Below are positions 3,121 through 37,200 of a stretch of 64,000 bases of DNA, piece after piece. This DNA comes from Antedon bifida (taxonomy: Eukaryota; Echinodermata; Crinoidea; Comatulida; Antedonidae): contig OY727101.1 of the NCBI GenBank assembly GCA_963402885.1, positions 15,476,417 to 15,540,416 on the forward strand, given 5' to 3'. Every line of letters begins with the position of its first letter. Positions within the stretch are counted from its first letter, which is position 1. A program made the position numbers and the translations under genes. Under the pieces are notes generated by a model. The model did no database searches, had not been told where the DNA came from, and saw nothing but the letters and a program-made list of their open reading frames with translations.

Positions 3121-6100
3121 TACAGGAATTTTTTCGAAAAATTGCAAAATTCCTACCTTTTTAAATTTTTGACATAAATGGTTACTGAAGGTCTTTAAGA
3201 TAATTATAGCACAATATATGCACATATATAGCCATATTATTGCATAATAATAGTATTACTATTATTATAGTATAAGGATTTTTTCGAAAAATGGCCAATT
3301 TTCGACCCTTTTATATGGTTACTATAGCATAATAAACATGCGCAGAGTCGAATAATGCATTCTGCGCATGTCAATTGTGCTATAGTAACCAGTTTTATCG
3401 AAAAATGAAAAGGTCGAAAATTTGACATTTTTTGAAAAAATCCCTGTAAGGGAAATTTTCGAAAAATGGCTAATTTTCGACCCTTTTATTTTGTGACACA
3501 AATGGTTACTATAGCATAATAAACATGCGCAGAGTCGAATAATGGGTTCTGCGCATGTCAATTGTGCTATAGTAACCACTTTTGACATAAATGGTTACAT
3601 AGCATAATAAACATGCGCAGAGTCGAATAATGCATTCTGCGCATGTCAATTGTGCTATAGTAACCAGTTTTATCGAAAAATGAAAAGGTCGAAAATTTGA
3701 CATTTTTTGAAAAAATCCCTGTACTATAGTAAGGGAAATTTTCGAAAAATGGCTAATTTTCGACCCTTTTATTTTGTGACACAAATGGTTACTATAGCAT
3801 AATAAACATGCGCAGAGTCGAATAATGGGTTCTGCGCATGTCAATTGTGCTATATAGTAACCACTTTTGACATAAATGGTTACTATAGCATAATAAACAT
3901 GCGCAGAGTCGAATAATGGGTTCTGCGCATGTCAATTGTGCTATAGTAACCAGTTTTATCGAAAAATAAAAAGGTCGAAAATTTGCCTTTTTTTTGAAAA
4001 AATCCCTGTACTATTATAGTACAGGGAAATGTTCGAAAAATAGCCAATTTCGACCCTTTTATTTTTTAACATAAATGGTTACTATAGCATAATAAACATG
4101 CGCAGAGTCGAATAATGGGTTCTGCGCATGTCAATTGTGCTATAGTAACCACTTTTAACATGAATGGTTACTATAGCATAATAAACATGCGCAGAGTCGA
4201 ATAATGGGTTCTGCGCATGTCAATTGTGCTATAGTAACCAGTTTTATCGAAAAATAAAAAGGTCGAAAATTTGCCATTTTTTGAAAAAAATCCCTGTACT
4301 ATAGTACAGGGAAATTTTCGAAAAATTGCAAATATTCGACCCTTTTATTTTTTAACATAAATGGTTACTATAGCATAATAAACATGCGCAGAGTCGAATA
4401 ATGGGTTCTGCGCATGTCAATTGTGCTATAGTAACCAGTTTTATCGAAAAATAAAAAGGTCGAAAATTTGCCTTTTTTTTGAAAAAATCCCTGTACTATA
4501 GTAAGGGAAATGTTCGAAAAATAGCCAATTTTCGACCCTTTTATTTTGTGACACAAATGGTTACTATAGCATAATAAACATGCGCAGAGTCGAATAATGC
4601 GTTCTGCGCATGTCAATTGTGCTATAGTAACCAGTTTTACTAAAAAATAAAAAGGTCGAAAATTTGCCATTTTTTGAAAAAATCCCTGTACTATAGTAAG
4701 GGAAATTTTCGAAAAATAGCCAGTTTTCGACCCTTTTATTTTTTGACGTAAATGATTACCATAGCATAATAAACATGCGCATGTCAATTGTGCTATAGTA
4801 ACCAGTTTTATCGAAAAATAAAAAGGCCGAAAATTTGCCATTTTAAAAAAAAATCCCTGTACTATAGTAAGGGAAATTTTCGAAAAATGGCTAATTTCCG
4901 GCCTTTTATTTGTTGACATAAATGGTTACTATAGCATAATAAACATGCGCAGAGTCGAATAATGGGTTCTGCGCATGTCAATTGTGCTATAGTAACCAGT
5001 TTTATCGAAAATTAAAAAGGTCAAAAATTTGCTATTTTTAAAAAAAATCCCTGTACTATAGTACAGGGAAATGTTCGAAAAATAGCCAATTTCGACCCTT
5101 TTATTTTTTGACATAAATGATTACTATAGCATAATAAACATGCGCAGAGTCGAATAATGAGTTCTGCGCATGTCAATTGTGCTATAGTAACCACTTTTAA
5201 CATGAATGGTTACTATAGCATAATAAACATGCGCAGAGTCGAATAATGCGTTCTGCGCATGTCAATTGTGCTATAGTAACCAGTTTTATCGAAAAATAAA
5301 AAGGTCGAAAATTTGCCATTTTTTGAAAAAAATCCCTGTACTATAGTACAGGGAAATTTTCGAAAAATTGCAAATATTCGACCCTTTTATTTTTTAACAT
5401 AAATGGTTACTATAGCATAATAAACATGCGCAGAGAAGAATAATGCGTTCTGCGCATGTCAATTGTGTTATAGCAACCAGTTTTATAAAAAAATAAAAAG
5501 GTCAAAAATTTGCCATTTTTTGGAAAAAATCCCTATACTATAGTAAGGGAAATTTTCGAAAAATAGCCAATTTTCGACCCTTTTATTTTTTGACGTAAAT
5601 GATTACCATAGCTTAATAAACATGCGCAGAGTCGAATAATGCGTTCTGCGCATGTCAATTGTGCTATAGTAACCAGTTTTATCGAAAAATAAAAAGGTCG
5701 AAAATTTGCCATTTTAAAAAAAAATCCATGTACTATAGTAAGGGAAATTTTCGAAAAATGGCTAATTTCCGCCCTTTTATTTGTTGACATAAATGGTTAC
5801 TATAGCATAATAAACATGCGCAGAGTCGAATAATGGGTTCTGCGCATGTCAATTGTGCTATAGTAACCAGTTTTATCGAAAAATAAAAAGGTCGAAAATT
5901 TGCCATTTTTTGAAAAAAATCCCTGTACTATAGTACAGGGAAATTTTCGAAAAATGGCCAATATTCGACCCTTTTATTTTTTAACATAAATGGTTACTAT
6001 AGCATAATAAACATGCGCAGAGAAGAATAATGCGTTCTGCGCATGTCAATTGTGCTATAGTAACCACTTTTAACATGAATGGTTACTATAGCATAATAAA

Positions 6101-6993
6101 CATGCGCAGAGTCGAATAATGCGTTCTGCGCATGTCAATTGTGCTATAGTAACCAGTTTTATCGAAAAATAAAAAGGTCGAAAATTTGCCATTTTTTGAA
6201 AAAAATCCCTGTACTATAGTACAGGGAAATTTTCGAAAAATTGCAAATATTCGACCCTTTTATTTTTTAACATAAATGGTTACTATAGCATAATAAACAT
6301 GCGCAGAGAAGAATAATGCGTTCTGCGCATGTCAATTGTGTTATAGCAACCAGTTTTATAAAAAAATAAAAAGGTCAAAAATTTGCCATTTTTTGGAAAA
6401 AATCCCTATACTATAGTAAGGGAAATTTTCGAAAAATAGCCAATTTTCGACCCTTTTATTTTTTGACGTAAATGATTACCATAGCATAATAAACATGCGC
6501 AGAGTCGAATAATGCGTTCTGCGCATGTCAATTGTGCTATAGTAACCAGTTTTATCGAAAAATAAAAAGGTCGAAAATTTGCCATTTAAAAAAAAAATCC
6601 CTGTACTATAGTAAGGGAAATTTTCGAAAAATGGCTAATTTCCGCCCTTTTATTTGTTGACATAAATGGTTACTATAGCATAATAAACATGCGCAGAGTC
6701 GAATAATGGGTTCTGCGCATGTCAATTGTGCTATAGTAACCAGTTTTATCGAAAAATAAAAAGGTCGAAAATTTGCCATTTTTTGAAAAAAATCCCTGTA
6801 CTATAGTAAGGGAAATTTTCGAAAAATAGCCAATTTTCGACCCTTTTATTTTTTAACATAAATGGTTACTATAGCATAATAAACATGCGCAGAGTCGAAT
6901 AATGCGTTCTGCGCATGTCAATCGTGCTATAGTAACCAGTTTTATCGAAAAATAAAAAGGTCGAAAATTTGCCATTTTTTAAAAAAATCCCTG
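3121..6993. repeat. palindromic satellite array, left block
   Basis: About 20 monomers. Spacing between successive GGTTACTATAGCATAA starts is 187-199 bp, with interspersed short units of about 90 bp. Each full monomer holds two inverted repeats. One has arms GGTTACTATAGCA / TGCTATAGTAACC, with inner arms ACATGCGCAGA / TCTGCGCATGT around a GTCGAATAATG loop. The other is centred on GTACTATAGTAC with flanking CGAAAA / TTTTCG and GGTCGAAAA / TTTTCGACC arms. The short units contain only the first palindrome. A larger period of roughly 874 bp recurs (the variant GTGTTATAGCAACC near 5465 and 6338), a sign of unequal exchange. Stop-free stretches on the - strand arise because many monomers are about 189 nt; they are not treated as genes. 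Confidence 0.93.
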
Positions 6994-8042
6994 CGCAAAG
7001 GGTACAGCTCAATCTTCTCATTCGGAAAGGTAAAGAACGCAAAAAGAAATGGACAAGAAATGGACAGAGCCATGTGGGGTCATTAAAACTGAATTGGACT
7101 GGGTCATTAGATAATGAGGAAACGGGACAATTGGCCAATGGGGCCCAAGAATCTAGGAGGTTGTTTTGAATACCGGCATACTAAAAACTGTCAATTTTAG
7201 GGGTTTATCACATGATCGATGTATTAAATGATATTAAATAATAGAATAATAAGACTTTAATTTTATGTTAAAAGTTGAGAAAGTCGACATTGTTTTATCC
7301 AATTTTCGAAACAAAATCCTTGTACTATAGTACATGAATTTTGTTTTTTAAAAAACGGTAAATTCGACTACAATATGTGTGCTGTATTAGTTATTAATTA
7401 ACTAGTTAAAAAACCCACCCTGACTTCTAATTGGCCAACAATATTCCAAGTAGTTTGATATTAAGTTAGCCTTTTTCAAAAATTGAGACAAAATTACCGT
7501 TAACTTTGTCTGGGGCTTTTTTTCTAGGCCACATGGTACCATATGATATGTGTAACTGTCAGAGGAGTAACTAAAGGTTACTGGATGATAACCTCTATAG
7601 TATGAGTTATTATCACAATATATTATTAGAATTGGTGGAAGGAATTATTTGATTCACATTAAAATGAATTGTAGTGGAATTGCTCTTGAAATAAATATAA
7701 AATATTTGAGAATTTACACTGCTAAGGAAATACTCTTGACAAGAATATAGAAGTCACCATTTAATGTACACTCAACTGCAAAAAGTTTCCCCTCTGCTTT
7801 TTTTGTAAGGGCTTGGGACCTTCAAATACAAAGTGCAATGAATGATATAATGTAAATTATAATGTAATAATTAAAACTGAATATAATTTATAAAAATTAC
7901 AAAATAATTTACAACATTAATCATTGCTCTTTGGATTTGGCAGCATTAAAAACTTTTTTTTTTTTAATTATTATTAAAAAAAAATTGAAGATATATGAAA
8001 GAGTATAAAAAGTCTATCCATGGCTACAAAAATCATTTGGAA
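6994..8042. other. non-coding left part of the island
   Basis: Downstream side of the DUF6729-type gene. No coding sequence is recognised. One isolated, eroded copy of the satellite's second palindrome is present at about 7285-7372, centred on GTACTATAGTAC with TTTTCGAAACAAAATCC on one arm. The rest is AT-rich unique-looking sequence. Confidence 0.45.
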
Positions 8043-11000
8043 TCATTCTTGTTGCTGCTTTTTTTTCCGCTCTTGACGAAGGCGACGGATGGCAACCATA
8101 GTCGATTTCCATTCTTCAAAAGTCACATCAGATGTTGCAGCACAATACCAATTTCCATAGTACTGAGTGTGGTTCTTATTTAACCTTGGTTGCTTACACT
8201 TTGAGCACACAATCGCAGACGTTCTTGGTTTGTATATTTTGATCGGTTTCCCTTCCGATATGTCTCTAGCCACTCGTTTTCTGTACAAGAGGGTAGTTCT
8301 AGGAATACGAGTACTGCTAGCCTCAGGGACTGATGGTGGTGGTTTTGCTATCTCGCCTGGAACTGGGATCGACTGTCTGTTTCCTAAATAGGCTAGGCCG
8401 GAAGTGTTTTTTGGTAGGACAAATGTGAAAGATGGAGCGCTTGTATGAACGTTTAGCACCGCTGGCTTGGTTAAAGGTTCAAGTAGGGTTTTATCAGAGA
8501 CAAGTTTGGGTACTGTTGCTGAGATGCCAGATTCCAACACTTGCCGCTCTTGCTTCTTTGATGTTCTGTTGTACCTGTTGTAAATAAATCAAACACAGTA
8601 TTTAAAAACTTGAATGTATTTACTGTAGTGTAAAATAACAGTAATAACAAGTTAAAACTCACCACTGGATGAGTGTCGTACGATTTATCTCCATCAACTG
8701 AAGCTTAGCAAACAACATCAGGTGTCCATTCGATAGCACTTTCCGACGAATGTTCTTGTAGCCTTTGGTAATGAGCGGCCAGCGCTGGAAACGTTTACCT
8801 TCGATAGATACGGTAGATGGATACGCTTCACACAGTTTGGTAATAATGCACTCCATATATCGATTGCAGTCCGGCCACTGAGCTGGTCCGGTGTTCTGAC
8901 CTAAGAAGCATCTTTTTAAAAAAAAACAACAAAGAAACGAGTTAGATTTAAGACTCATCATGCAACAAAGTGAAAAACGCTGGAAACTGCCTTACCGTCG
9001 AGTGCTTTCAACACCAGGTATTACGGAAGTAGTTTTACTTTTCTTGAACCTGCCTTTCGTCAAGTAATCTTGATGCCGTGCTTTGCGCTTAATGGTTTTG
9101 TCATAAGCATCCAGGTTGTTCCACAACTTTGCGACATGTTCAGCATGACTTTGACTTATCACTCCACTGTCTTCCTTAAACTGCATAAGGTAGTCTGCCA
9201 GGGCTTCAACTTTGGCGTAGCCTGGAATGTTGTCCGGTCCAGTGGAATCCTCAAGTTCCTAAATTGTAAAATATGAAAACAAAATAAATTATTAGACTCG
9301 TGCATTGTATTTCAAAACAGAAACAAAATTTGTGAGGTAGAAGCTAATAATACAAATTTAACTCACTGTGTCAATAAGGGCTGCTTTTCCTTCACCATCA
9401 TCATCATTACCGTCACATAAAGGCAAGGGCTCCAGCTGGGGTGGTGAGATTTCTTTAGCATTTCGAGGTTTAAAACAACGCTTAGGTGGTTTGTAGTCAG
9501 GTTGAGTCTTGTCATCATAACCTTCATCAACATCAAAAGTGTAAATTTCTTCATCAAAGTCTTCATCATTAATGGTATCTGTTTTGACAGGAAATTGAGT
9601 TTCGAGTACTTTGTTCGACTGGCTATACAGGTACTCCACTCCGATGAGTTCTCCAGTGTACTTGTTTGGAATGATAAAACTTTTGTACACTTTTTTGCCA
9701 ATCACTTGCTCTGCCAGTATGTTGAGAGCATGCTGATGCAGTCCACTATATGTACTGGAGATGGGTGCTCCAGACTGGGTAGCAGCTAGTGCACGGTTTG
9801 CATTCCATCGAACAAGTCCTTCCATCAGGTAAGCTTGGAAATGTAAGTCGCTAGCACGCTCACCTGAGAAAAAAATAAAACATCCATAATTATGAAATTA
9901 TACAAAAATCAGTAGATAGGTTTGAAGATTTGGTAGATACCAAATAAAAAGTAATACTGTACCTGGAATAAACCTGTTAAGGTGAAGGTGAAACGATTCC
10001 AAAGAAGTGGAGCCTCTTGCGCAACGATAAACTGGCAAGGTAACTCCACCCTTAAGCATCTCGCTGGTTTTTGTGTAGAGCGGGATGCCTTCTGGATCCT
10101 GGATGCAGGCGATGTGTCGCTCTTGTGAGCTCCAGATATCCCAGGTCTGTTCGGAGTCTAAGAGTGGGACGCCCATTGTGTCACGGCCTTCTTCACCATC
10201 GAGGGAAGTCAGGAGCTCTCGGATTAGGTCGGCAGTCTCGCGGGTCCCTCGTGTTGTCCTGCGACAATGTAAAGCATACTCCTTCTTGCTGATGTTTTTC
10301 AATATGATGTCGTCTGTTGGGTTGGAATGCTTCTTGCTTGCAATGAGCTGTTCACGCTTGGCGAGCTTCAGACGTTCAACATCGTCAGCGCTCCACTCAA
10401 AAATGCAAGCGGAAAGACGTTTGAGAAAGATCGGATACAACTGATGTGATTCTGTTGAACAAGCTGCAGCAATTCTCCTCATGAAGTGCCAGATGTCCAG
10501 GCGAATTTGCATGTCAGGCCAGGCGCTGAACATCTTCCTTATGCTTGAATGACCGCAGCAGTCACGATCGACGTAGAGAATATCGGGAGGAGGTACGCCT
10601 GCCGAAGCATATCGGTTAATGATACCGTTTGTCATGTTGTTTAGGCCACATCCTTCTGCAGCAGTCAGGACTGTAATGAGCACCTGGCCGTGCTCATTTC
10701 CAACGTTTGTTGCCCATGCTCCTGTTCCACATGCACGACCGGCTAGCTTCCTTACAATCTGCAAAAAAAATATAATAATTATTAGGAAGAAAGCTTCCCG
10801 ACAATCTGCAAAAAAAAATTTAAATAATTAAAAGCAAATTGCAGAAATTACTTACCCTTTTGGTCGAGTCAATCTTCAACACTCTTCCGAACGTCGATGT
10901 GATAGAAGCCTTGAGTTCGTCGATTCTTCCCATTACTTCGTTGCAGTAGATGGTGAGGAACCATTGGACAGTGGGAACAGGAATCATTTTAGACACCTCA

Positions 11001-12604
11001 TCAAATTTAGAAGCAGCAATGACATAATCATCATGAGAACCACAGAACTTCTTGCAATTTTCTAAGTAGAGAGCCACTCTCTCATTCCACCGCCTTGTGT
11101 GTTGTTCTAAGACTTGTTGGCGAAGCTGTGATGGACTGTTCCCGAGACCACGGTACTTTAGAAGCTGCAGGACCCGGTTGTCGCAGGCCAAGTGATACGA
11201 AAGTACAACAGGAAACTGAAGGCGATGCGCTAAATCAAGTTGCTTTAAAATGTTTTCACTCCAGCCAATTTGTCTTTGTTGGCAGTTAGAGCACCTCAGT
11301 TGTTCTGTTGCAAGAAAGTAGTGGCAGTCTAAATCCAGGACTGGACGAACGATTCCATGGAGGCCGCCTGATGTTAGTGGATAGCTCTTGCATTCTGGCC
11401 GAGGGCAGACCAGCTTGACCTGCCAAGTCTTGCGGGGCAACCAAAGAAGAAGACGATGACCGAAGTAACTGTTGGCCATGGGTATGTTTTTGTTGAGCGG
11501 ATCCGGTTGAGGTGGATAATACCAAAGTTGTTTGAGTTTAGTTGAATCCAACTCTGCGGTCCCTTTCTTCGATTTCTTGAATAAGGTTTTTGAAATCCAC
11601 TGTTGATCAATCTCGGGCAAGTTCTTCTTCCATTTATCTGGTATGAGACAATCTGCAAGAAAAACCAAGACAAAATTGTATAATTAATTAAACTACATTA
11701 TGTAATTTTCATTTTCTAGTTTTAAACATCAAACAAAATAATTAAAATTACATGAAATAAACTACCTTCACTATGTTTGATAGTTTCTGTAGTGGATGGC
11801 ATAGTACTAACAGATTCATAAGATGTATTTGGTTGAGCTGCAAGACGGAAAATTAAAGAATATTTAGCAGTAAACTACTTTCATTCGCTATCTACAGTAT
11901 GCTAGAAAGCAATATATTTAAACAACACGATTTTATGATTGAGTATAAATGAATGCATAAAAAAAACCTAAACCCAGCAAACCTACTAAAAATGCAAAAC
12001 CTCGAATTATTAATTTAAAAAATGCACAAAAAACACAAAATATGAAATAAGTCTTACCTGGTGCATATGAGGTTGATGGCTGCAAAGAAGCATCAAAGAC
12101 ATCAGTACCAGAAAGTGTTTCATCTGTGACATCCTTAACCTTTTGTAGCTCAATACCAACAGGTATGTACGATGTCTGTCTAGTTGGGCATTTCCTGAGG
12201 CGTTTTATTTCTTTCATTGCTATGGCTTCTTTGCCTTCTGGGAAAGACTCCAAGTACCTCTTAAAGTTGAATTTGTTGATATTAAGTGAACTTGTACTTG
12301 GAATTTCATTAGCCATTTTAATTACAAAACATACTGCATATTCCAGTACATTTTCGACCATCCACTTGAATGTTTGTCCACTGTATTTACCATGCTGAAA
12401 CCTGTAGCAGCCCAACACATCACATTCATCTTTGGTGTTTCCACCCAGCCTGCACACCTCCTTCAAGGCATCTTGGCGTACATCATCAGGAGTTAGACAC
12501 TTGCCAGTTGGTCGTTTTCTCAAGCTGTTAAATACTACAGCAGCAGATGTATCTTCAAGAATTAAGGCACCCTCTTCACTGCGCCGAAAAGTTGGTCTTA
12601 ACAT
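8043..12604 (-). CDS. DUF6729-type protein with DDE transposase-like core, 8+ exons, intact
   Basis: On the - strand, exons 12604-12058, 11837-11766, 11652-10856, 10758-9963, 9863-9367, 9258-8996, 8911-8663 and 8574-8043 join in frame to 1,250 residues with no stop. Residues 1-180 include GKYSGQTFKWMVENVLEYA, an N-terminal signature I associate with large uncharacterised fish and invertebrate proteins. About 207-470 is the DUF6729-like zinc region (LVCPRPEC, then LRCSNC). D468 (LKIDSTKR), D536 (YVDRDCCG), D560-H563 (LDIWHFMRR) and E726 (SLESFHLH) are in the order of a MULE/IS256-like DDE fold; that assignment is inference. An acidic stretch lies near 810-900. The C-terminus has CSKCKQPR and YYGNWYC, a likely zinc site, then a basic tail. 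The start is uncertain: ATG 12604 is the first Met in its exon, but a 41-nt exon (12738-12698) keeps the frame open, and an ATG exon (14010-13876) would also splice in phase. Confidence 0.75.
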
Positions 12605-12697
12605 ACTGTACTGTCTATTGAACACCTGCAAAACTAAAAAAACTGATCAAAGGCAAAAATATATGTAAGTAAAGTATGTGATAAAAGAAAATGTTAC

Positions 12698-12738
12698 CCG
12701 TATAATGCCACTGTGCACCGTGCAGTTGTAGTAAATGG
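12698..12738 (-). other. candidate 41-nt upstream exon of the DUF6729-type gene
   Basis: On the - strand, TTTATTTACAG precedes and GTAACATTTTC follows a 41-nt segment that reads IYYNCTVHSGIIR and joins in frame to VFNRQYSMLRP at the next exon (acceptor before 12625). It contains no ATG, so it is either 5' UTR or preceded by another coding exon. Both splice sites are acceptable. Confidence 0.45.
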
Positions 12739-13875
12739 CTGTAAATAAAGGAAAATCAAATCTAAATAAAATATCTGTGGGTTAAAATTTCTCAAGTAAT
12801 AATTAATAGTAGACCAAGACTTTAAATGTAAAATATTAATAAAATGAATCACATAGCATTAAAACATATCTACTAAGAACAAACTATTTTATCTAAATTA
12901 AATTAAGAAAATATTACATATGAATAATTATGTTTTTTTTTCAATTAACAAAACTATATAAAGAATTACAACATAAATTAGAGTAAATTGAATAATCTTT
13001 GTTTATTAAACAGTGTATGTATTAACTCTTTGATCCCTGAGCACTTCCTTTAATGCAATCAAATTATTTGAGAATCTTATCTAAATCCACAAATACAGTT
13101 GATTGCCTAATTAAACGAATGCTTTAGATCAAAGAGTAGAAGCCTACACTTAATTAAACAATCATTATAATAAAAGTTAAATTGTTTATCTATCAATTAG
13201 AAGGCTTAGTCTGTTTCCCATGGATGCTATTCTGATACAGCACACATTTAGTTTTTTATAGTTTAAAATTATGTTAGGCCTAAAATCTATTACAGGCTAC
13301 ATAGGCTAGTCTAACTAGTAGTAGGATTGTTAAAATATTAAATAAATTAAACTTTGAAGAATAGCTTACTTTAAACTAAATCGATAAATACTAATCTAAG
13401 CCTAGGCCTAGTCTATCTAACTACCCGTAGTAGATAAGTTTTGAAGAAAAAAAATAACAGGGAGCCTTAAGTAAGTATAGCATCTTACTAGGGCCTATAG
13501 CCCTTGCAGGCCCATGGTTTGACTTACAATTCATGGCAACCAAAAAAGTCTTTCTATCTAGCCTAGCCTAGGCGGCCTATATAGTAAATACATTAATTAA
13601 AGTAAGTGTCGAGTGACACTATATCTAAACCCTAACTAACCTATAAAGGCATGCGTTATTGTTAATACTTTATGAAATATATGTAGGCCTATTGGTAATT
13701 AGGGGGGGAAGTAATAATAGCAAATGCATTTTACCCCACAGAGCAGACCGCCAACAAGAATTAGCGTCGACCGCGGGGCTGGCACCCATACAAACACATT
13801 TGCTAGGCCATAGTCACGGCCTAGGCCAAACAAGTTATCAACACTTTAAATGCATGAAATCAATTTCGCTCTTAC
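12739..13875. other. intron or upstream region of the DUF6729-type gene
   Basis: AT-rich, no coding sequence recognised apart from the flanking candidate exons. It contains a small inverted-repeat element (13022-13138) and GC-richer TAGGCCTA-type patches around 13,260-13,580. Low-complexity AT tracts make up much of the rest. Confidence 0.4.
13022..13138. mobile_element. small MITE-like element, terminal repeats TTAACTCTTTGATC
   Basis: TTAACTCTTTGATC at the left is matched by GATCAAAGAGTAGAA at the right, about 117 bp overall, with no coding capacity. The size and end structure fit a miniature inverted-repeat element. It is the only copy seen in this window. Confidence 0.5.
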
Positions 13876-14010
13876 CTTTAATGCAAGTACACGTTCGAGT
13901 TGAATACAGCTACTACCAGAATTCGCCTTGAAATTAATAATAATAATAATAAGTCTAGAGGATTTGTAAAAAGATGTTGTCGCATGTAAATCTGGACAAA
14001 ATCTCATCAT
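13876..14010 (-). other. candidate first exon of the DUF6729-type gene
   Basis: A - strand exon ending in a strong donor (TTAAAG|GTAAGAG at 13876). Reading from ATG at 14010 gives 45 codons with no stop (MMRFCPDLHATTSFYKSS at the start) and phase 0 at the donor, so it could splice directly to the acceptor before 12625 and add 45 residues. It could equally be a 5' UTR exon. It lies just downstream, in the direction of transcription, of the CCAAT/CRE-like cluster. Confidence 0.35.
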
Positions 14011-14048
14011 TGTTTGTGTTGTGAAAAACTTGTGGAAGTCAGATATTA

Positions 14049-14185
14049 ATTACGTCACTTTTCAGTGTTCTGATTGGTCAAAATGACGACATTTGGAACA
14101 CTTTTCTAAGGCTCTGCTTACGTCACTTTTCAGTGCTCTGATTGTTCAACTTTTGGAACGCTTTCCGCTGCTCTGATTGGTCAAT
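14049..14185 (-). promoter_or_regulatory. CCAAT and CRE-like cluster, likely promoter of the DUF6729-type gene
   Basis: Two direct repeats of TTACGTCACTTTTCAGTG are each followed by TCTGATTG, and a third GCTCTGATTGGTCAA follows at about 14172. On the - strand these read as CCAAT boxes (two exact, one changed to ACAAT) and TGACGTAA elements, the typical proximal-promoter spacing for a gene transcribed leftward. The candidate first exon begins about 40-130 bp further on. Regulatory function is inferred from motif content only. Confidence 0.45.
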
Positions 14186-14234
14186 CAGTTGTTCAATTCA
14201 TTGTCCAATTCTACAGCACACATTGGGTTATTTG

Positions 14235-17200
14235 TATACTATAGTAAGGGAAATTTTCGAAAAATGGCTAATTTCCGCCCTTTTATTTGTTGACATAAAT
14301 GGTTACTATAGCATAATAAACATGCGCAGAGTCGAATAATGGGTTCTGCGCATGTCAATTGTGCTATAGTAACCAGTTTTATCGAAAAATAAAAAGGTCG
14401 AAAATTTGCCAATTTTTGAAAAAATCCCTGTACTATAGTAAGGGAAATTTTCGAAAAATGGCTAATTTTCGACCCTATTATTTTTTGACATAAATGGTTA
14501 CTATAGCATAATAAACATGCGCAGAGTCGAATAATGGGTTCTGCGCATGTCAATTGTGCTATAGTAACCAGTTTTATCGAAAAATAAAAAGGTCGAAAAT
14601 TTGCCATTTTTTGAAAAAATCCCTATACTATAGTAAGGGAAATTTTCGAAAAATAGCCAATTTTTGACCCTTTTATTTTTTGACGTAAATGATTACTATA
14701 GCATAATAAACATGCGCAGAGTCGAATAATGCGTTATGCGCATGTCAATTGTGCTATAGTAACCAGTTTTATCGAAAAATAAAAAGGTCGAAAATTTGCC
14801 ATTTTTTAAAAAAATCCCTGTACTATAGTAAGGGAAATTTTCGAAAAATAGCCAATTTTTTACCCTTTTATTTTTTGACGTAAATGATTACTATAGCATA
14901 ATAAACATGCGCAGAGTCGAATAATGCGTTATGCGCATGTCAATTGTGCTATAGTAACCAGTTTTCTCGAAAAATAAAAAGGTCGAAAATTTGCCATTTT
15001 TAAAAAAAATCCCTGTACTATAGTACAGGGAAATGTTCGAAAAATAGCCAATTTTGGACCCCTTTATTTTTTGACATAAATGATTACTATAGCATAATAA
15101 ACATGCGCAGAGTCGAATAATGAGTTCTGCGCATGTGAATTGTGCTATAGTAACCAGTTTTATCGAAAAATAAAAAGGTCGAAAATTTGACATTTTTTGA
15201 AAAAATCCCTGTACTATAGTAAGGGAAATTTTCGAAAAATGGCTAATTTTCGACCCTTTTATTTTTTGACATAAATGATTACTATAGCATAATAAACATG
15301 CGCAGAGTCGAATAATGGGTTCTGCGCATGTCAATTGTGCTATAGTAACCAGTTTTATCGAAAAATAAAAAGGTCGAAAATTTGCCATTTTTTGAAAAAA
15401 TCCCTATACTATAGTAAGGGAAATTTTCGAAAAATAGCCAATTTTTGACCCTTTTATTTTTTGACGTAAATGATTACTATAGCATAATAAACATGCGCAG
15501 AGTCGAATAATGCGTTATGCGCATGTCAATTGTGCTATAGTAACCAGTTTTATCGAAAAATAAAAGGGTCGAAAATTTGCCATTTTTTAAAAAAATCCCT
15601 GTACTATAGTAAGGGAAATTTTCGAAAAATAGCCAATTTTTTACCCTTTTATTTTTTGACGTAAATGATTACTATAGCATAATAAACATGCGCAGAGTCG
15701 AATAATGCGTTAGGCGCATGTCAATTGTGCTATAGTAACCAGTTTTATCGAAAAATAAAAAGGTCGAAAATTTGCCATTTTTAAAAAAAATCCCTGTACT
15801 ATAGTACAGGGAAATGTTCGAAAAATAGCCAATTTTGGACCCCTTTATTTTTTGACATAAATGATTACTATAGCATAATAAACATGCGCAGAGTCGAATA
15901 ATGAGTTCTGCGCATGTCAATTGTGCTATAGTAACCAGTTTTATCGAAAAATAAAAAGGTCGAAAATTTGCCATTTTTTGAAAAAATCCCTATACTATAG
16001 TAAGGGAAATTTTCGAAAAATAGCCAATTTCTGACCCTTTTATTTTTTGACGTAAATGATTACTATAGCATAATAAACATGCGCAGAGTCGAATAATGCG
16101 TTATGCGCATGTCAATTGTGCTATAGTAACCACTTTTGACATGAATGGTTACTATAGCATAATAAACATGCGCAGAGTCGAATAATGCGTTCTGCGCATG
16201 TCAATTGTGCTATAGTAACCAGTTTTATCGAAAAATAAAAAGGTCGAAAATTTGCCATTTTTTGAAAAAATCCCTGTACTATAGTAAGGGAAATTTTCGA
16301 AAAATGGCTAATTTCCGCCCTTTTATTTGTTGACATAAATGGTTACTATAGCATAATAAACATGCGCAGAGTCGAATAATGGGTTCTGCGCATGTCAATT
16401 GTGCTATAGTAACCAGTTTTATCGAAAAATAAAAAGGTCGAAAATTTGCCATTTTTTGAAAAAAATCTCTGTACTATAGTACAGGGAAATTTTCGAAAAA
16501 TGGCCAATATTCGACCCTTTTATTTTTTAACATAAATGGTTACTATAGCATAATAAACATGCGCAGAGAAGAATAATGCGTTCTGCGCATGTCAATTGTG
16601 CTATAGTAACCACTTTTGACATAAATGATTACTATAGCATAATAAACATGCGCAGAGTCGAATAATGGGTTCTGCGCATGTCAATTGTGCTATAGTAACC
16701 AGTTTTATCGAAAAATAAAAAGGTCGAAAATTTGCCATTTTTTGAAAAAATCCCTATACTATAGTAAGGGAAATTTTCGAAAAATAGCCAATTTTTGACC
16801 CTTTTATTTTTTGACGTAAATGATTACTATAGCATAATAAACATGCGCAGAGTCGAATAATGCGTTATGCGCATGTCAATTGTGCTATAGTAACCAGTTT
16901 TATCGAAAAATAAAAGGGTCGAAAATTTGCCATTTTTTTAAAAAATCCCTGTACTATAGTAAGGGAAATTTTCGAAAAATAGCCAATTTTTTACCCTTTT
17001 ATTTTTTGACGTAAATGATTACTATAGCATAATAAACATGCGCAGAGTCGAATAATGCGTTATGCGCATGTCAATTGTGCTATAGTAACCAGTTTTATCG
17101 AAAAATAAAAAGGTCGAAAATTTGCCATTTTTAAAAAAAATCCCTGTACTATAGTACAGGGAAATGTTCGAAAAATAGCCAATTTTGGACCCTTTTATTT

Positions 17201-19650
17201 TTTGACATAAATGGTTACTATAGCATAATAAACATGTGCAGAGTCGAATAATGGGTTCTGCGCATGTCAATTGTGCTATAGTAACCAGTTTTATCGAAAA
17301 ATAAAAAGGTCGAAAATTTGCCATTTTTTGAAAAAATCCCTATACTATAGTAAGGGAAATTTTCGAAAAATAGCCAATTTCTGACCCTTTTATTTTTTGA
17401 CGTAAATGATTACTATAGCATAATAAACATGCGCAGAGTCGAATAATGCGTTATGCGCATGTCAATTGTGCTATAGTAACCACTTTTGACATGAATGGTT
17501 ACTATAGCATAATAAACATGCGCAGAGTCGAATAATGCGTTCTGCGCATGTCAATTGTGCTATAGTAACCAGTTTTATCGAAAAATAAAAAGGTCGAAAA
17601 TTTGCCATTTTTTGAAAAAAATCTCTGTACTATAGTAAGGGAAATTTTCGAAAAATGGCTAATTTCCGCCCTTTTATTTGTTGACATAAATGGTTACTAT
17701 AGCATAATAAACATGCGCAGAGTCGAATAATGGGTTCTGCGCATGTCAATTGTGCTATAGTAACCAGTTTTATCGAAAAATAAAAAGGTCGAAAATTTGC
17801 CATTTTTTGAAAAAAATCTCTGTACTATAGTACAGGGAAATTTTCGAAAAATGGCCAATATTCGACCCTTTTATTTTTTAACATAAATGGTTACTATAGC
17901 ATAATAAACATGCGCAGAGAAGAATAATGCGTTCTGCGCATGTCAATTGTGCTATAGTAACCACTTTTGACATGAATGGTTACTATAGCATAATAAATAT
18001 GTGCAGAGTCGAATAATGCGTTCTGCGCATGTCAATTGTGTTATAGTAACTAGTTTTATCAAAAAATAAAAAGGTCGAAAATTTGCCATTTTTTGAAAAA
18101 ATCCCTATACTATAGTAAGGGAAATTTTCGAAAAATAGCCAATTTTCGACCCTTTTATTTTTTGACGTAAATGATTACCATAGCATAATAAACATGCGCA
18201 GAGTCGAATAATGCGTTCTGCGCATGTCAATTGTGCTATAGTAACCAGTTTTATCGAAAAATAAAAAGGTCGAAAATTTGCCATTTTAAAAAAAAATCCC
18301 TGTACTATAGTAAGGGAAATTTTCGAAAAATGGCTAATTTCCGCCCTTTTATTTGTTGACATAAATGGTTACTATAGCATAATAAACATGCGCAGAGTCG
18401 AATAATGGGTTCTGCGCATGTCAATTGTGCTATAGTAACCAGTTTTATCGAAAAATAAAAAGGTCGAAAATTTGCCAATTTTTGAAAAAATCCCTGTACT
18501 ATAGTAAGGGAAATTTTCGAAAAATGGCTAATTTTCGACCCTTTTATTTTTTGACATAAATGGTTACTATAGCATAATAAAAATGCGCAGAGTCGAATAA
18601 TGGGTTCTGCGCATGTCAATTGTGCTATAGTAACCAATTTTATCGAAAAATAAAAAGGTCGAAAATTTGCCATTTTTTGAAAAAATCCCTATACTATAGT
18701 AAGGGAAATTTTCGAAAAATAGCCAATTTTTGACCCTTCTATTTTTTGACGTAAATGATTACTATAGCATAATAAACATGCGCAGAGTCGAATAATGCGT
18801 TCTGCGCATGTCAATTGTGCTATAGTAACCAGTTTTATCGAAAAATAAAAAGGTCGAAAATTTGCCATTTTTAAAAAAAATCCCTGTACTATAGTAAGGG
18901 AAATTTTCAAAAAATTGCAAATTTTCGACCCTTTTATTTTCGATAAAACTGTTTACTATAGCACAATTGTCATGCGCAGAACGCATTATTCGACTCTGCG
19001 TATGTTTAGTATGCTATAGTAATCATTTATGTCAAAAAATAAATTTTCGAAAAATAGCCAATTTTCGACCCTTTTATTTTTTGACGTAAATGATTACCAT
19101 AGCATAATAAACATGCGCAGAGTCGAATAATAAAGGGAAATTTTGTTATAAAATTGTGCTATTATAGTAACCACTTTTGACATGAATGGTTACTATAGCA
19201 TAATAAACATGTGCCGAGTCGAATAATGCGTTCTGCGCATGTCAATTGTGCTATAGTAACCGGTTTTATCAAAAAATAAAAAGGTCGAAAACTGCCATTT
19301 TTTGAAAAAATCTCTGTACTATAGCCATATAGGGATTTTTTCAAAAAATTGCAAATTTTCGACCCTTTTATTTTCGATAAAACTGTTTACTATAGCACAA
19401 TTGTCATGCGCATAACGCATTATTCGACTCTGCGCATGTTTATTATGCTATAGTAATCATTTATGTCAAAAAATAAAAGGGTCGAAAACTGGCTATTTTT
19501 CGAAAATTTCCGTTACTATAGTACAGGGATTTTTTTTTTAAATGGCAAATTTTCGACCTTTTTATTTTTCGATAAAACTGGTTACTATAGCACAATTGAC
19601 ATGCGCAGAACGCATTATGCGACTCTGCGCATGTTTATTATGTCAAAATT
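14235..19650. repeat. palindromic satellite array, right block
   Basis: About 27 monomers of the same family as 3121-6993, including the shared subtype with AATTTCCGCCCTTTTATTTG (14266, 16308, 17660, 18340). A subtype with GCGTTATGCGCATG is frequent here and not seen in the left block. From about 18,920 monomers appear in the opposite orientation (TTTTATTTTCGATAAAACTG followed by TATAGCACAATTGTCATGCG), with mixed orientation up to 19,650. The flip occurs at a palindrome, where strand exchange needs no extra breakpoint. Confidence 0.93.
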
Positions 19651-27364: not shown

Positions 27365-28159
27365 ATGACAGGAAACATGTCAATCCGAGCCAAAATTATC
27401 AGCATGGGCAGCACTGAATCTGGGAAGAGCTGCATCATCAAACGCTACTGTGAAAAAAGATTTGTAAATAAATATCTTGCAACTATTGGAATAGACTATG
27501 GAGTTACAAAAATCAGAGTAAAAGATCGTGATGTAAAGATTAATATATTTGATATGGCTGGTCATCCGATATTTTATGAAGTACGGAATGAATTTTATAA
27601 AGATACACAGGGAGCACTTTTAGTTTACGACATAACGGACAGAAAAAGTTTTGAAGCTTTAGAATTTTGGTTAACAGAAATGAAACAAGAAATAGGTGAT
27701 CCATTATATATGGATAAAATTGTGTTTGCTGTTTGTGCTAATAAGATTGATAAAAAATCTAAACGTGTTGTAGACGAGCTTGAGGGTCAACTTTGGGCAG
27801 ACAGTAAAGGATTCCTCTATTTCGAGACGTCTGCTTGTTCTGGAGAAGGCATTAATGAGATGTTTAACAAACTGTTCGACGGAGTTGTTGTCGCGTTTGA
27901 GAATGGCGGAAGAGTGAAACGAATAGAAACGACACTTGGCTACACGAAGGAGCAAGTTGAAGCTGTCAAGTGTCTCAAGAATGGGCATAACGATTTTGAA
28001 CGTCTCGGTATAAAAGCGGGGTCCTCGAAAGATGAAATCAACAAGGCTTATCGCAAACTGGCCGTGTTACTACACCCAGATAAAACAGTAGCGCCGCAAA
28101 GTGAAGAAGCATTCAAGATATTAGTCAGTGCCCGAACAAACTTATTGAGTGGGAAATAA
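27365..28159 (+). CDS. DNAJC27: DnaJ homolog subfamily C member 27 (Rab-like GTPase with J domain), intronless
   Basis: Single-exon 264-aa protein, close to the length I recall for vertebrate DNAJC27 (about 273). The GTPase domain has GSTESGKS (15-22, P loop), T40 in the switch I ATIG, DMAGH (63-67, where Ras-type proteins have DTAGQ; the same DMAGH occurs in the family), NKID (126-129) and ETSA (154-157). The J domain spans about 209-262 with the HPD motif at 237-239. There is no C-terminal cysteine for prenylation. The family has been linked to MEK/ERK signalling and nuclear shuttling; that is from the literature, not the sequence. The start at 27365 gives a short N-terminus and a second in-frame Met lies four codons later. 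Absence of introns is notable, since the vertebrate gene is split. Confidence 0.95.
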   Translation: MTGNMSIRAKIISMGSTESGKSCIIKRYCEKRFVNKYLATIGIDYGVTKIRVKDRDVKINIFDMAGHPIFYEVRNEFYKDTQGALLVYDITDRKSFEALEFWLTEMKQEIGDPLYMDKIVFAVCANKIDKKSKRVVDELEGQLWADSKGFLYFETSACSGEGINEMFNKLFDGVVVAFENGGRVKRIETTLGYTKEQVEAVKCLKNGHNDFERLGIKAGSSKDEINKAYRKLAVLLHPDKTVAPQSEEAFKILVSARTNLLSGK

Positions 28160-31295: not shown

Positions 31296-34200
31296 TTAAC
31301 CTCTGGTGATAAGCTCATTCTCATTTGGGTGCACTCGTGAATACATCTATAAAGAAAAAAAATCAAATCAAAAATACATTGAATGTAAAAATTCATTCAA
31401 GGATGCTAGGGAAGACTTAGGCTCTGTCTACACTATCAAATGTCATGCGACAAAAAAATGTGATGTGCCATGGACATGATGATGTCATATCACTACCTTA
31501 TTTGAGCATATCACTACCATATTTGGGCACGTCACACTTTTTTTGTCAAACTAGTTTGATAGTGTAGACAGAGCTTTATCTACATGGTTGATGTCAAAAA
31601 CTTGCATATCCAGTGCATGTCGACATATTCCTATCAATATACAAGAAATGCTGTAAAACTATAGTAGAACCTTTCCTTTGGGACACCTCTATTCAAGGAA
31701 ACCTCTAGTAAGGGGACACTTATGAAACAAACAAGAAAAATCTTATGTTTTAACACTATGACCAACCCCTTTAAGGGGACAGTTGATTGGGTCCCAGAGG
31801 TGTCCCCTAATAGGGTTCTACCGTATACTTATCAATACTAAATAAGTATATCTTACCCCTAAGAAATTTCTTGGTACATAGCCCTCTTTATTGTCGGTCA
31901 TCCTCTTGACCCACCACCATTCATTCTCTTCTGCATCTCCACGCTTTAGAACATGGAACTCCTCGCCGTCTTCAAAGCTTAGCTCATCAGGAGAGACTGC
32001 TTCGTAGTCATAAACTGCATAACTTCTGCTTCCATTTACCTCTCCAAGATCATTCTGTACACCTGTAACATAGAAGAGAAAATACTATAATATTTGTACC
32101 TGACTTTAATATTAAGTCATCTAGGCTGGTAATTAAATATAATACAAGAACAATGCTGCAATTTAAATTCTAGGAAAATTATTATTTTGACAAATGTTAT
32201 TTATTCCTCAGGCTGAATGCAATGGTGAATAAGAAGCAGAGAATTCCATCTGAATTGGAGAATGTGCTCACAAGGTATTCCATTCCTAAGACCCGTTTAA
32301 ATTAATTTGATGCCTCACTATAGAAGCCTTCAGCAGGGATGGAAATTACAAAGCTGTTTATTTCAAGTACATTATTTATAGACTAAACTGATCATAATTT
32401 TATTACAATTTATAAAACTGACATTCAGACAAACTTACCATACAAATACTGAGAGCAATCTAGGTAGCCATCTTCACCTTCTTCGCATTTCTGAGCTGCC
32501 GTTTCCTTGTCGCTAATGGTGGCAGCAAATATACTAGCACCCTTCTCCACTAACAACTGAACCATCTCTCGGCTGTTGCATGAGGCTGCACAATGTAATG
32601 GCGTCCTATAAAAGAGAAATGATTAGCAAACCAATTAGCATCTTTTGTAGATAAAAAGGGCATCAAATGAAGTAAACAAAGTTTTATCATGATCACATAT
32701 AATTTAAAATACAGAATTTAGCCAGTAGCGGCACTCCATCCACGGCCACCTGACAGCCTCAGCCAATGGATGCTAGCTTCACATGCATGGAAAATTCTGG
32801 CACCAACACCAAATTTAGTACAGAAATACAAATAGCACTCACCATCCGTCACTGTCTGCAGCATTGACATCACATCCCCAGTCAAGGAGGAAGTTGACAA
32901 TTTCAAAGTGACCAGCACAGATTGCATTGTGCACTGCGGTTATACCCTCATCATTTGCTGCACTGGGGTTTAATACCTAAAAAACAATAACAGTTATTAT
33001 TAATACAGTAATTATTATTGTCTTGCTTTTCTGTGTAAATAATTATGGTGAGCTCCATTACTATCTTAATGATAAATTAGTGCATTGGTATATATACAGC
33101 ATACCACTTGTCAATGAATAGGGATCTTTTCCATTGATGCAAGGCAAATGCAAGTGTAAAGCCTTGAGGGAACAAATCAATAACTTACGGTAATATCATC
33201 AAAGAGTCAATGACAAGGACAACATATTACTAAAAAAAATTATTAAAAAATATATTATTAATGAATACTTACATCAGGCATAATACGTCTAACAAGATCA
33301 TATTCTCCTTCTAATGATGCATCCAATAGCAATGCCAACGGATCGAACCTAACCCTCTGGGGCTTGGATACATAGTTTTTCTTAATAACGTTGCTCTTTG
33401 TAGGGACTTTCTTCAAGGCTTCAAGACCATTTGAGTTGGCTGACTGGGAGAAGGCTGGCATGTATGGCTTGTTGTTTTCCTTCTTTTCAACTGGTTTAGG
33501 AATGGCAGGTGGTGAAGGCGGCTTTGCCACAGATTTCGCATCAAGCGATGTCTCTTTCAACATTGCAGGTGGTTTTGTTTTCTCGGTGACAGCTTCTGCT
33601 TGTTGAGGTTGAGAAGGCATTCCAGAACCCTTGTTCATTGAATCTAACTCTTGTCTGGAGACGCCCTGGTAGAGTATCATCTTCCTGAAGGAATCGGCAG
33701 GGTTTTGATGATCAAACTCAAACGCTGGTTTATTATCTGGTTGATAAAATGTGTTTGGATACTTGTTCAAGAATGGATAGCATTCCTTGTCTTCAGAATG
33801 CGAGAATCGTTTCTTCAGTGGTCGTGGCATCATGTGAAGCTTTTCCATTTCAACTCTGCTGTGAACAGGACCAGAGCTGTAGTTCATTCCACCAGGGTAC
33901 GCATGAGGTGCGTCGCTGTCATCAGATATCTCCTCCCGTTCTTCCAACGTCTCTGGGTAATTTCCGTGAGGAGGGTAGTAACCTTGATGGTGGGGCATGT
34001 TCCTTGATGGGAGAGGGAGTTGACGACCTTGGCTGTCAAGAGGTTGTTGGTCATAAACAGCATTGCCATCTTGGAATTCTGGTGGTGCAGGATACACTCC
34101 AACAGTGGCATCCGTTCTTTTATGATTGGCTGTTAACTTACTATCTACTGATGTGCTGTTCGCTTCAGTGTAGAACGGTGTTCCAGTTTGACTGCCTGGT

Positions 34201-37200
34201 CTGGAGTTATAATAACTATTAGGAACACTTTGGGATGAACTGACCTGAGGATTTTGCCTGTGAGTGGTTAATGGAGAAGGAGGTTTGGTACCTTGATGAT
34301 TGTAGACTGGTGTTTCCTTATTGGGTGAGCTTTGCATTTGGTCATAGGGTACTGTTGGTTTAACAGGGCCTGTCTGTTTGGTGTTTTGTGACATGCCCGG
34401 TTTCTGATCATACGTCAATTTAGTTGACAGGCTCTTTGGAGGTACTTTAGGAGGCTGCTTCTTTCCAGGAGAAGGTGCAGGTTTAGTAGCAGTCGGTGGT
34501 GGTTTGGGTTTTGAATTCAGCGCAGTGTTTCCTCTCTGCGTTGGGCTTGACCTTGCCGCTGGCGGTAAGTTAGATCCAGGTAGTGTCCGCAAAGGACGTC
34601 CATCCGCCTCTTGTCGATTCTCATTTCCAATTTGCGAAGGGGAAGTTCTTGCTTCGGTGGACTTTCCACGTATTGGCTGATTGGTCATACCAGATCCACT
34701 AGCACTATCTAAACTAGAGTTCTCAGTAAGAGATGAAGTATCACTGCCACTGTTTTCGTTGACACCTTCAGGTTGACCTCTAACCCCAGGAATACCTGAT
34801 TGGTTAGGAAACGGAGCTCTTTGCCCCATCGGGCTGGCAGCTGGTGAAGCACTAGCTGAACCAGATTGTGGCGATTGTTGCCCGTAAAACATCTGACCAA
34901 CCGGCGCTCTACCATTTGTCGTCTGGTATTGGTTTTGTTGGTAGTACCTGCTGTTTTGAGATGGGTATCCTCTGGTGTCAGTACCATTCGGTTTCCTACT
35001 ATTGATATAGTTTTGATTAACACCATTAGAATGGTATATACCATTCACTGAGCCATTTGGTAGAGTTCTTATATTGTTGTTGTTAGTAGAATAAGGACTA
35101 ATGCTTTGTTGCATAGATCTTTTCTTCCGCAATCTTTCAGTCAGTTCTGCAATACGTTTGTCTACAACTGCCATTTCCTCCTTGCGAGTTTTTAAATATT
35201 CCTTCTGGTGTTCTACCTTGTTACTTTGTTCCTCATTGAGTTTATTTCGTAACTATATATAAAAAATGAAGAAAAAAACCAGTTGATTTATAAAGGCATG
35301 TCTACACTATCAAACTTTATGTGAAAAAAATGTGACCATATGGACACAATGGTGCCATATCACTACCATATATGGCCACATCACACTTTTTTTGTCAAAC
35401 TAGTTTAAAAGTGTAGTCAGAGCTTTGGATTTGTCTTGGGATGTAGAGATATTATTTTAATTAACAATCACCAATTTGACAGTTAATGTTGCTGTTACAG
35501 ATAGTAACAACAATAAGCATTTTGTTTACCATATAAAGATTTATTCCTTCTGAAACTTGATACTAAAAATAAGCATCAATAAAGTACAGGAAAGTGACAC
35601 ACATGTACTTTCATAAACAACACATCAGTTATACACTTATTCAGCTTAAGTTTCTGATTTATTACATATTTATAGTTGAATATAAATTATCCACCATATT
35701 TAGCTTTCTACTCTTTGTTCAGCTCCAGCAGCAAAACAATTCTCAAGACAACTGAAGGAGGATCAAAGATTAAAGATAATTGGATCATGAAGTCAAATTG
35801 AAGGGATTGTGACTTAAATTGGCCAATCACATGAGAGTTGACCTAGATTTATGTCTCTCTACTGACTTGATAAATCTTACAATTTTGTACCATTGATCTA
35901 ATTTAATAAATTAAGTTTAGTTTATATTAGTTTATTAGCAATTTACAGGGATTATTAGTAAGCTGATTTGTTTTCAAATCAATAAAATATAATAATATTG
36001 AATGATGATGACAGAATGATCTGGTTTCTGTTCAATTAAAGCTGCATTCACACTAAGCCAAATTCCAATCTGGTGGCTGGATAAAATTCATGAAAACACA
36101 TTCCGGATTTAGTAAGAAACATATGCGAGTTATTGAAAAATGTAACATATCCCAGTGTTTTCTCAGACTACCAGGCTTAAGTGCGAATGTAGCTCACTGT
36201 AATATACATGCATTGTAGATTGATTGTTAATTTTTAGTTGTGTACATAACAATGTAAACAGAATTGCATTAGGGATTACATTATAATCATGGGAATAGAG
36301 ATAATCTAAACAAAGATATATACAGTACAACATGTTCATCATATTCAATTATATTCAGGCCGCATCCAAATACCACTTTTGCAACATTTTAGTGAATAAT
36401 AAGCTACGTATTTTGTATTCATGTAACAATAAGTTTTGACAGGCAAATTTTTTAATTGTACTTATTAATAATAACATTTATTATAAAGAGGGCCTCTTCA
36501 AGTCAGGTAACTGCTATAGTGAAGTTGTTAGAGCTACCCTCTTGAAATAAAGTTGAATAAACAAATAAACAGAATAGCAGAAAAACAGACAGGACTGGAG
36601 AAAAGCAATCCGAGATATAAGCAAAGCAACCGAGGCGGGAAAGTCATCAGACTATCTGGCGGACCGGCAATAAAGTAAAGTAAGTAAACAAATAAATAAT
36701 TAAATAACATAAAATTATATAATAAAATATTACACATACCAGTAGATCTTTCCTTAGTCTGTCCAGCTCCACAGACTGCAGGGGATTTTTACTGTTGCCA
36801 TTAACATAGTTAATATTGCCTGTACGCATATCTTCCAACTGTCTCGTCAAATCCTCGACCTTTGACACGGCGAGGGCGAGCTCTTTCTCCTTTTCAGCGA
36901 ACAAAGAACGCACTTCATCCAATTCGGAAGCTGTAAGAAAGTTTTTAAAATTTTATTTAAGGCTTTTTAGACTTTTCCATGACACGCCAACATTGTTGTC
37001 AATGTTATGGGGACTAGACTGGTGATATTTATAGTTTTCAATTCAAACAATTTTAAAGAGCATACCTTATTACTAGAGCCTTTATTCATATTAACAACAA
37101 ATATAAAGCAATATTACATAATTTATTAATATCATAATAAGACTTTTATACAATATTTGATTGATTATAAAGAAAAACAAATTTATGGCGACTCAAATTT

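Follow-up and report, generated by a model that had tools for sequence, protein, structure and literature searches.

A probable Dada-U6-line DNA transposon recurrently inserted into a dispersed palindromic satellite of Antedon bifida

A palindromic satellite of Antedon bifida is broken by an island at positions 6993-14241 of the 64,000-bp stretch analysed here (the window; C14:15476417-15540416 of a 315.6-Mb assembly). The question raised by this locus is what the island is and how it came to lie at this point of the repeat. According to an earlier note on the same DNA, the satellite runs to 6993 and restarts near 14235 with the island in between. This was seen again, with resumption at 14235-14237. 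The borders proposed in that note (6994..14234) were right in that the island is real, but the element body itself was found to start and end slightly further on and to be flanked by hexamer slots (Table 1).

Table 1. Coordinates of the island, its gene and the adjoining satellite in the window
Feature	Positions	Strand	Basis
Left satellite array, palindromic monomers of ~195 bp	3315..6993	.	
Left hexamer slot GCGCAA, donor type (= U6 hexamer)	6993..6998	.	
Body of the probable Dada element, 7238 bp	6999..14236	minus	end bases identical in 21/21 left ends
GAGAAGATT, CAGAGAAGA-like motif (7/9), 14 nt from slot as in U6	7011..7019	minus	
Internal palindrome TGTACTATAGTACA, target-like	7321..7334	.	
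Transposase gene, 8 coding exons (12604-12058, 11837-11766, 11652-10856, 10758-9963, 9863-9367, 9258-8996, 8911-8663, 8574-8043)	8043..12604	minus	
Exon with D536, D560xxH563 and E726	9963..10758	minus	
Exon encoding DUF6729, the CCCC zinc finger and D468, the first D of the triad	10856..11652	minus	
Right slot TACTA (GTACTA minus one base)	14237..14241	.	
Right satellite array	14242..19642	.	

Elsewhere in the window, an ORF with Ras and DnaJ domains was found at 27365-28159, which we take to be a host gene of RJL type. On the minus strand, an open frame of 638 aa (33258-35174) was without a Pfam match (E up to 10), and a 60-bp tandem repeat of five copies with 94% matches is located at 49932-50229.

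Transposase gene and probable relationship to Dada-U6

The intact DUF6729-type gene with a DDE triad that had been claimed for the island could be confirmed. After splicing of GT-AG introns, the gene model, counted from 12604 downward on the minus strand, gives 1250 codons free of stops in eight exons. DUF6729 (2e-79) was the sole Pfam match of the 1250-aa protein at E up to 10. The catalytic triad was assigned by sequence to D468, D536 and E726, together with a DxxH motif at D560xxH563; the D-D spacing is 68 and the D-E spacing 190. D536, the DxxH motif and the E are invariant also in a 39%-identical relative on C10. An AlphaFold2 model of the catalytic exon, made from a two-sequence alignment, reached a pLDDT of 40 and did not confirm the fold; a phmmer comparison of residues 1-903 with PDB sequences returned nothing at E up to 10. 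Two zinc fingers are present, one of CCCC type (C289, C294, C327, C330) and one of CCHC type (C1197, C1200, H1209, C1218).

Dada elements, as described by Kojima and Jurka (PMC3706591), encode a DDE transposase that has DxxH, a CCCC finger near the N terminus and a CCHC finger near the C terminus, contain introns, lack TIRs and produce 6-7 bp target-site duplications (TSDs) in small RNA genes. Their sequence-specific insertion into multicopy RNA genes without TIRs is reported in both PMC3706591 and PMC8869645. The Dada-U6 target reads CCCCT-GCGCAA-GGATG. In the available description of Dada-U6_DR, the D-D spacing of 68 is the same as here and the D-E spacing is 176 versus 190, while the spacings of the CCCC finger (5,35,3 versus 5,33,3 here) and the CCHC finger (3,10,9 versus 3,9,9 here) agree within two residues. 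As far as the accessible parts of the two papers go, Dada-U6 resembles the island in its DDE/DxxH residues, both fingers, introns, the lack of TIRs and a 6-bp slot after CCCT, and it also shares the GCGCAA hexamer, a motif similar to CAGAGAAGA close to the left end and tandem copies one hexamer apart. It differs in its target, which is U6 and not a palindromic satellite, and in that the two end hexamers of the island are usually unlike.

No TIR was found in the end sequences of the element. On the minus strand the left end has the order GAGAAGATT-8 nt-CCCT, which U6 also shows immediately ahead of its hexamer. The Dada-U6 sub-terminal motif is matched at 7/9 positions at the left end and 5/9 at the right, in both cases 14 nt from the slot. 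On the plus strand of the window, five satellite monomers (5431, 6018, 6304, 16564, 17915) carry CAGAGAAGA, the U6/Dada-U6 motif, and 43 others CAGAGTCGA.

A relative on C16, with 71-86% nucleotide identity over the aligned stretches, meets a U6 3' half-gene with its right end at GCGCAA-GGATGACACG (half-U6 at C16:3631563-3631606). Intact U6 genes lie beside it, and at its other end no U6 sequence was found in the stretch examined. Two U6-sited Dada copies are present at C16:3619000-3639500, 99.96% identical over 5 kb and apparently lacking the catalytic exon; a search with a 288-aa exon gave no match on C16. Judging from these sequences, they are possibly a non-autonomous or domesticated form. 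The C10 relative is located ~2 kb from two U1 genes, and a 12-bp U1-like match near it (E 0.19) was not used. In a 4.75-kb tandem array at C13:11794000-11803900, whose units are 99.98% identical, Dada exons were matched weakly, at about 40% over 58 aa.

Dada membership was judged from features, spacing and genome context, with the U6-sited relative and the relative near U1 standing in for published Dada sequences. The target here is a satellite; the multicopy small RNA gene usual for Dada was not found, and an Rfam scan of the window detected no RNA gene. Since some Dada members are listed without a named target in the available text of PMC3706591, an RNA-gene target is treated here as a usual and not a defining feature of the family. 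Based on the Dada protein features, the U6-sited relative and the U6 sub-terminal motif at the left end, the island is very probably a young DNA transposon of the Dada-U6 line, probably autonomous, that was retargeted from U6 snRNA genes to a dispersed palindromic satellite. From the same comparisons we infer that DUF6729 is likely to be part of the Dada transposase; no use of the name DUF6729 was found in the literature searched.

Copies of the element and their target site

Searched as protein against the entire genome, the 288-aa exon gave 40 matches, 21 of which cover 287-288/288 residues at 98-100% identity; these counts are lower bounds and refer to one assembly. Several copies are spaced 7.27-7.35 kb. 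The other 20 copies are 99.2-100% identical to the window copy over a 3.8-kb core, the comparison covering the borders and this core out of 7.2 kb. All 21 left ends open with the identical bases AGGGTACAGCTCAATC. The island is genuinely mobile, and its ends are defined to the base. Fourteen left ends adjoin satellite, six are joined head to tail to the right end of a further copy and one lies in other DNA (C1:20651666). The flank of the satellite-abutting ends finishes with CCCT in 13 cases and TCCT in one, and all 14 use the same slot. On the right side, 13 of the 21 ends meet the other half of the satellite site, including C1:3873, whose right flank has no junction-crossing satellite match; six are tandem, one is rearranged (L042) and one is lost (L076). 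The rearranged end belongs to a region, C1:510000-560000, in which a fragment and six near-identical copies, some in each orientation, are clustered. Three further, old ends were obtained by pattern searches: C14:7688729 (left) and C14:5670325 (right) in satellite and C7:23647994 (left) in other DNA. A candidate right end at C11:7264271 proved to be a chance match. Relatives sought in viral contigs and prokaryote genomes were not found.

The intact target, CCCT-GTACTA-TAGTAC-AGGG, is a 20-bp palindrome in which a 6-bp slot lies between CCCT and the dyad; across the junction the insertion site is written CCCT-GTACTA-TAGTACAGGG. Exact matches to the 15-base motif of the site number 2220 + 2650 (4,870) in 315.6 Mb, a perfect palindrome scoring on both strands. 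With this number of sites in the assembly and the same slot shared by 14/14 satellite-abutting left ends, the recurrent use of the slot is not due to chance. When the flanks (120 bp per side plus GTACTA) were joined, an uninterrupted satellite was matched across the junction at 11 of 12 loci, over 212-247 bp at 83.8-98.4% with 0-3 gaps; for the window the match is 98.4% over 246 bp. The test failed at C1:3873. Thirteen loci have a readable satellite end on both sides; 12 of them were covered, and C1:515 enters only the own-array comparison below. The satellite therefore predates the insertions.

These results bear directly on the remaining claims of the earlier note. It had proposed a mobile DDE-type unit without TIRs that inserts recurrently at the palindrome, and the borders of the other copies are as it predicted, 14/21 left ends being located at the same satellite site. 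The opposite outcome, a satellite that had grown around the gene, does not agree with the joined flanks. Insertion at the centre of the palindrome was only partly correct: the palindrome is hit repeatedly, but the slot is the 6 bp left of the dyad and touches it with its inner edge alone.

The same note had suggested a structure-directed insertion, and a transposase recognising the extruded cruciform of the palindrome would be in line with a 20-bp palindromic target whose dyad forms the inner edge of the slot, with a near-copy of this palindrome inside the element and with the use of both arms (left flanks of one type at six loci, of the other at four and unclear at one; 11 scored). Either arm can serve because the target is palindromic. 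However, imperfect palindromes are also hit (right flanks such as TAGTAAGGG, TAATACAGGG and GTACAGGG), one copy and one old copy lie in DNA without the palindrome, and the CCCT next to the hexamer is common to the U6 target; primary-sequence recognition is moreover what Kojima infers for Dada in PMC8869645. A cruciform is thus not needed and is very unlikely to be what the transposase recognises. The internal palindrome resembles the target with a score of 46-54, compared with a maximum of 31 in 1000 shuffles. It was rejected as a guide or binding site, the likeness being limited to the palindrome and the masked flanks not standing out. A target-like internal palindrome is also located downstream of the gene in a U6-sited relative (L073 8594-8607).

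Most of the insertions appear to be independent in sequence comparisons, though the homogeneity of the satellite blurs the test and local duplication also occurs. The joined flank is nearest to its own array by identity at seven of the 11 comparable loci (six by bit score), with a clear difference at C10, at C14:774 and in the window; two of the 13 loci were not comparable, and own arrays were represented by sampled monomers. The remaining loci (4/11 by identity, 5/11 by bit score) are nearer to the flank of another insertion. Together with the same left-end subtype among tandem members, this is what would be expected if a single insertion had been copied with its satellite, so that the shared site reflects one event. 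Such passive spread is likewise very unlikely, as both palindrome arms are in use and the flanks vary from locus to locus around elements that share 99.2-100% identity over 3.8 kb.

Hexamers at the junctions and the proposed integration

The left slot of the satellite-abutting ends (n=14) contains GCGCAA in 12 cases and GTACTA in two, while the right slot (n=13) contains GTACTA in nine, the window copy being one base short, and GCGCAA in four. Combined as left/right pairs (n=13), GCGCAA/GTACTA occurs eight times, GCGCAA/GCGCAA four times and GTACTA/GTACTA once; hexamers are thus equal at 5/13 and unequal at 8/13 loci. The reverse pair was found 0 times versus eight, which shows that the two ends of the element are non-equivalent. 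At the six tandem junctions, exactly one hexamer separates the copies (GTACTA five times, GCGCAA once). Genome-wide, the GCGCAA form of the empty site has one exact match versus 4870 for the GTACTA form. Being common at junctions yet nearly absent from empty sites, GCGCAA, the U6 hexamer, travels with the element. The single empty GCGCAA site shares its array with an inserted copy ~0.8 kb away and could be the footprint of an excision; stepwise mutation may also have produced it, a course compatible with the one-mismatch forms with TGCA and CGCT, which occur once each.

A tentative proposal, to which we give somewhat less than even chances, is that Dada integrates with a 6-nt coupling sequence derived from the donor, either gap-ligated or circle-exchanged, with unequal ends and no simple target-site duplication. 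The following course is probable: the transposase recognises the CCCTG/CAGGG side by sequence, the two target strands are cut 6 bp apart, and the element 3' ends are joined to them, leaving 6-nt gaps. A donor 6-nt flank kept on the 5' ends of the element would fit the gap and would often be ligated instead of trimmed. With identical donor and target hexamers the product would appear as a TSD; with unlike ones a GCGCAA/GTACTA heteroduplex would arise, to be resolved to either sequence at each end. The 8-to-0 asymmetry of the pairs is not accounted for by the simplest ligation scheme, and a heteroduplex circle, a one-strand pathway or preferential repair are each possible, the data not choosing between them.

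A tyrosine recombinase that swaps a short heterologous core from a circle in a Crypton-like manner, as for the coupling sequences of Tn916 (available portions of PMC4321634), can practically be dismissed: the mixed end cores, the lack of TIRs, the one-core tandem junctions and the one empty site with the donor core resemble it, as do the 4-6 bp direct repeats and the proposed circle of Cryptons (accessible text of PMC3212892), but a Pfam scan of the 1250-aa protein (E up to 10) detected no tyrosine-recombinase domain, nor did scans of 10 more ORFs out of 75 listed for the region, and the protein bears the DDE/DxxH and zinc-finger features of Dada. A tyrosine-recombinase coupling with a 4-bp core had also been considered and was replaced by the 6-bp slot in the light of the Dada paper.

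Comparison with known systems and meaning for the family

Published parallels include the fish elements Dada-tA and Dada-tY, for which Kojima describes replacement of the target hexamer by an ancestral one on one or both sides and calls the mechanism unknown (PMC8869645); Kojima also suggests that TSDs may be missing from some Dada insertions and that the former flank moved with the element. These elements target tRNA genes, whereas the target of the island is non-genic and its donor hexamer is far commoner at the left end. CryptonV families in microsatellites, described in the accessible part of the same paper, are likewise DNA transposons specific for a simple or satellite-type repeat, but use a tyrosine recombinase and not a DDE enzyme. 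The IS110 family (available portions of PMC11208160) shares the lack of TIRs, a short core and insertion into palindromic repeats (REP), and has a circle form; it differs in being prokaryotic and in its DEDD enzyme, 2-nt core and bridge RNA guide. Neither of the IS110 domains, PF01548 (DEDD RuvC-like) and PF02371, gave a Pfam match in the 1250-aa protein at E up to 10.

Published Dada targets in the available portions of PMC3706591 and PMC8869645 are genes for U6, U1, tRNA and 5S RNA, and other DNA is the site of single flanks or copies. No satellite target for Dada and no combination of palindrome, DDE and site specificity was found in the freely accessible literature searched. What is new here is the use of a satellite as target and the hexamer brought along by the element, sequence-specific insertion of Dada without TIRs being already published.

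Target-specific DNA transposons are rare and are of interest for gene delivery. In the element described here, the target would have switched naturally from an RNA gene to a satellite, the former hexamer being retained, and the large number of recent copies makes the unexplained flank replacement of Dada directly testable. If DUF6729 is indeed linked to Dada, DUF6729-annotated proteins in animal genomes become candidate transposases. If the proposed integration is true, a family freed from the target that matches its own flank would expose the mechanism of Dada, and a DDE transposon would be seen to change its target while dragging along a fossil of the old one.
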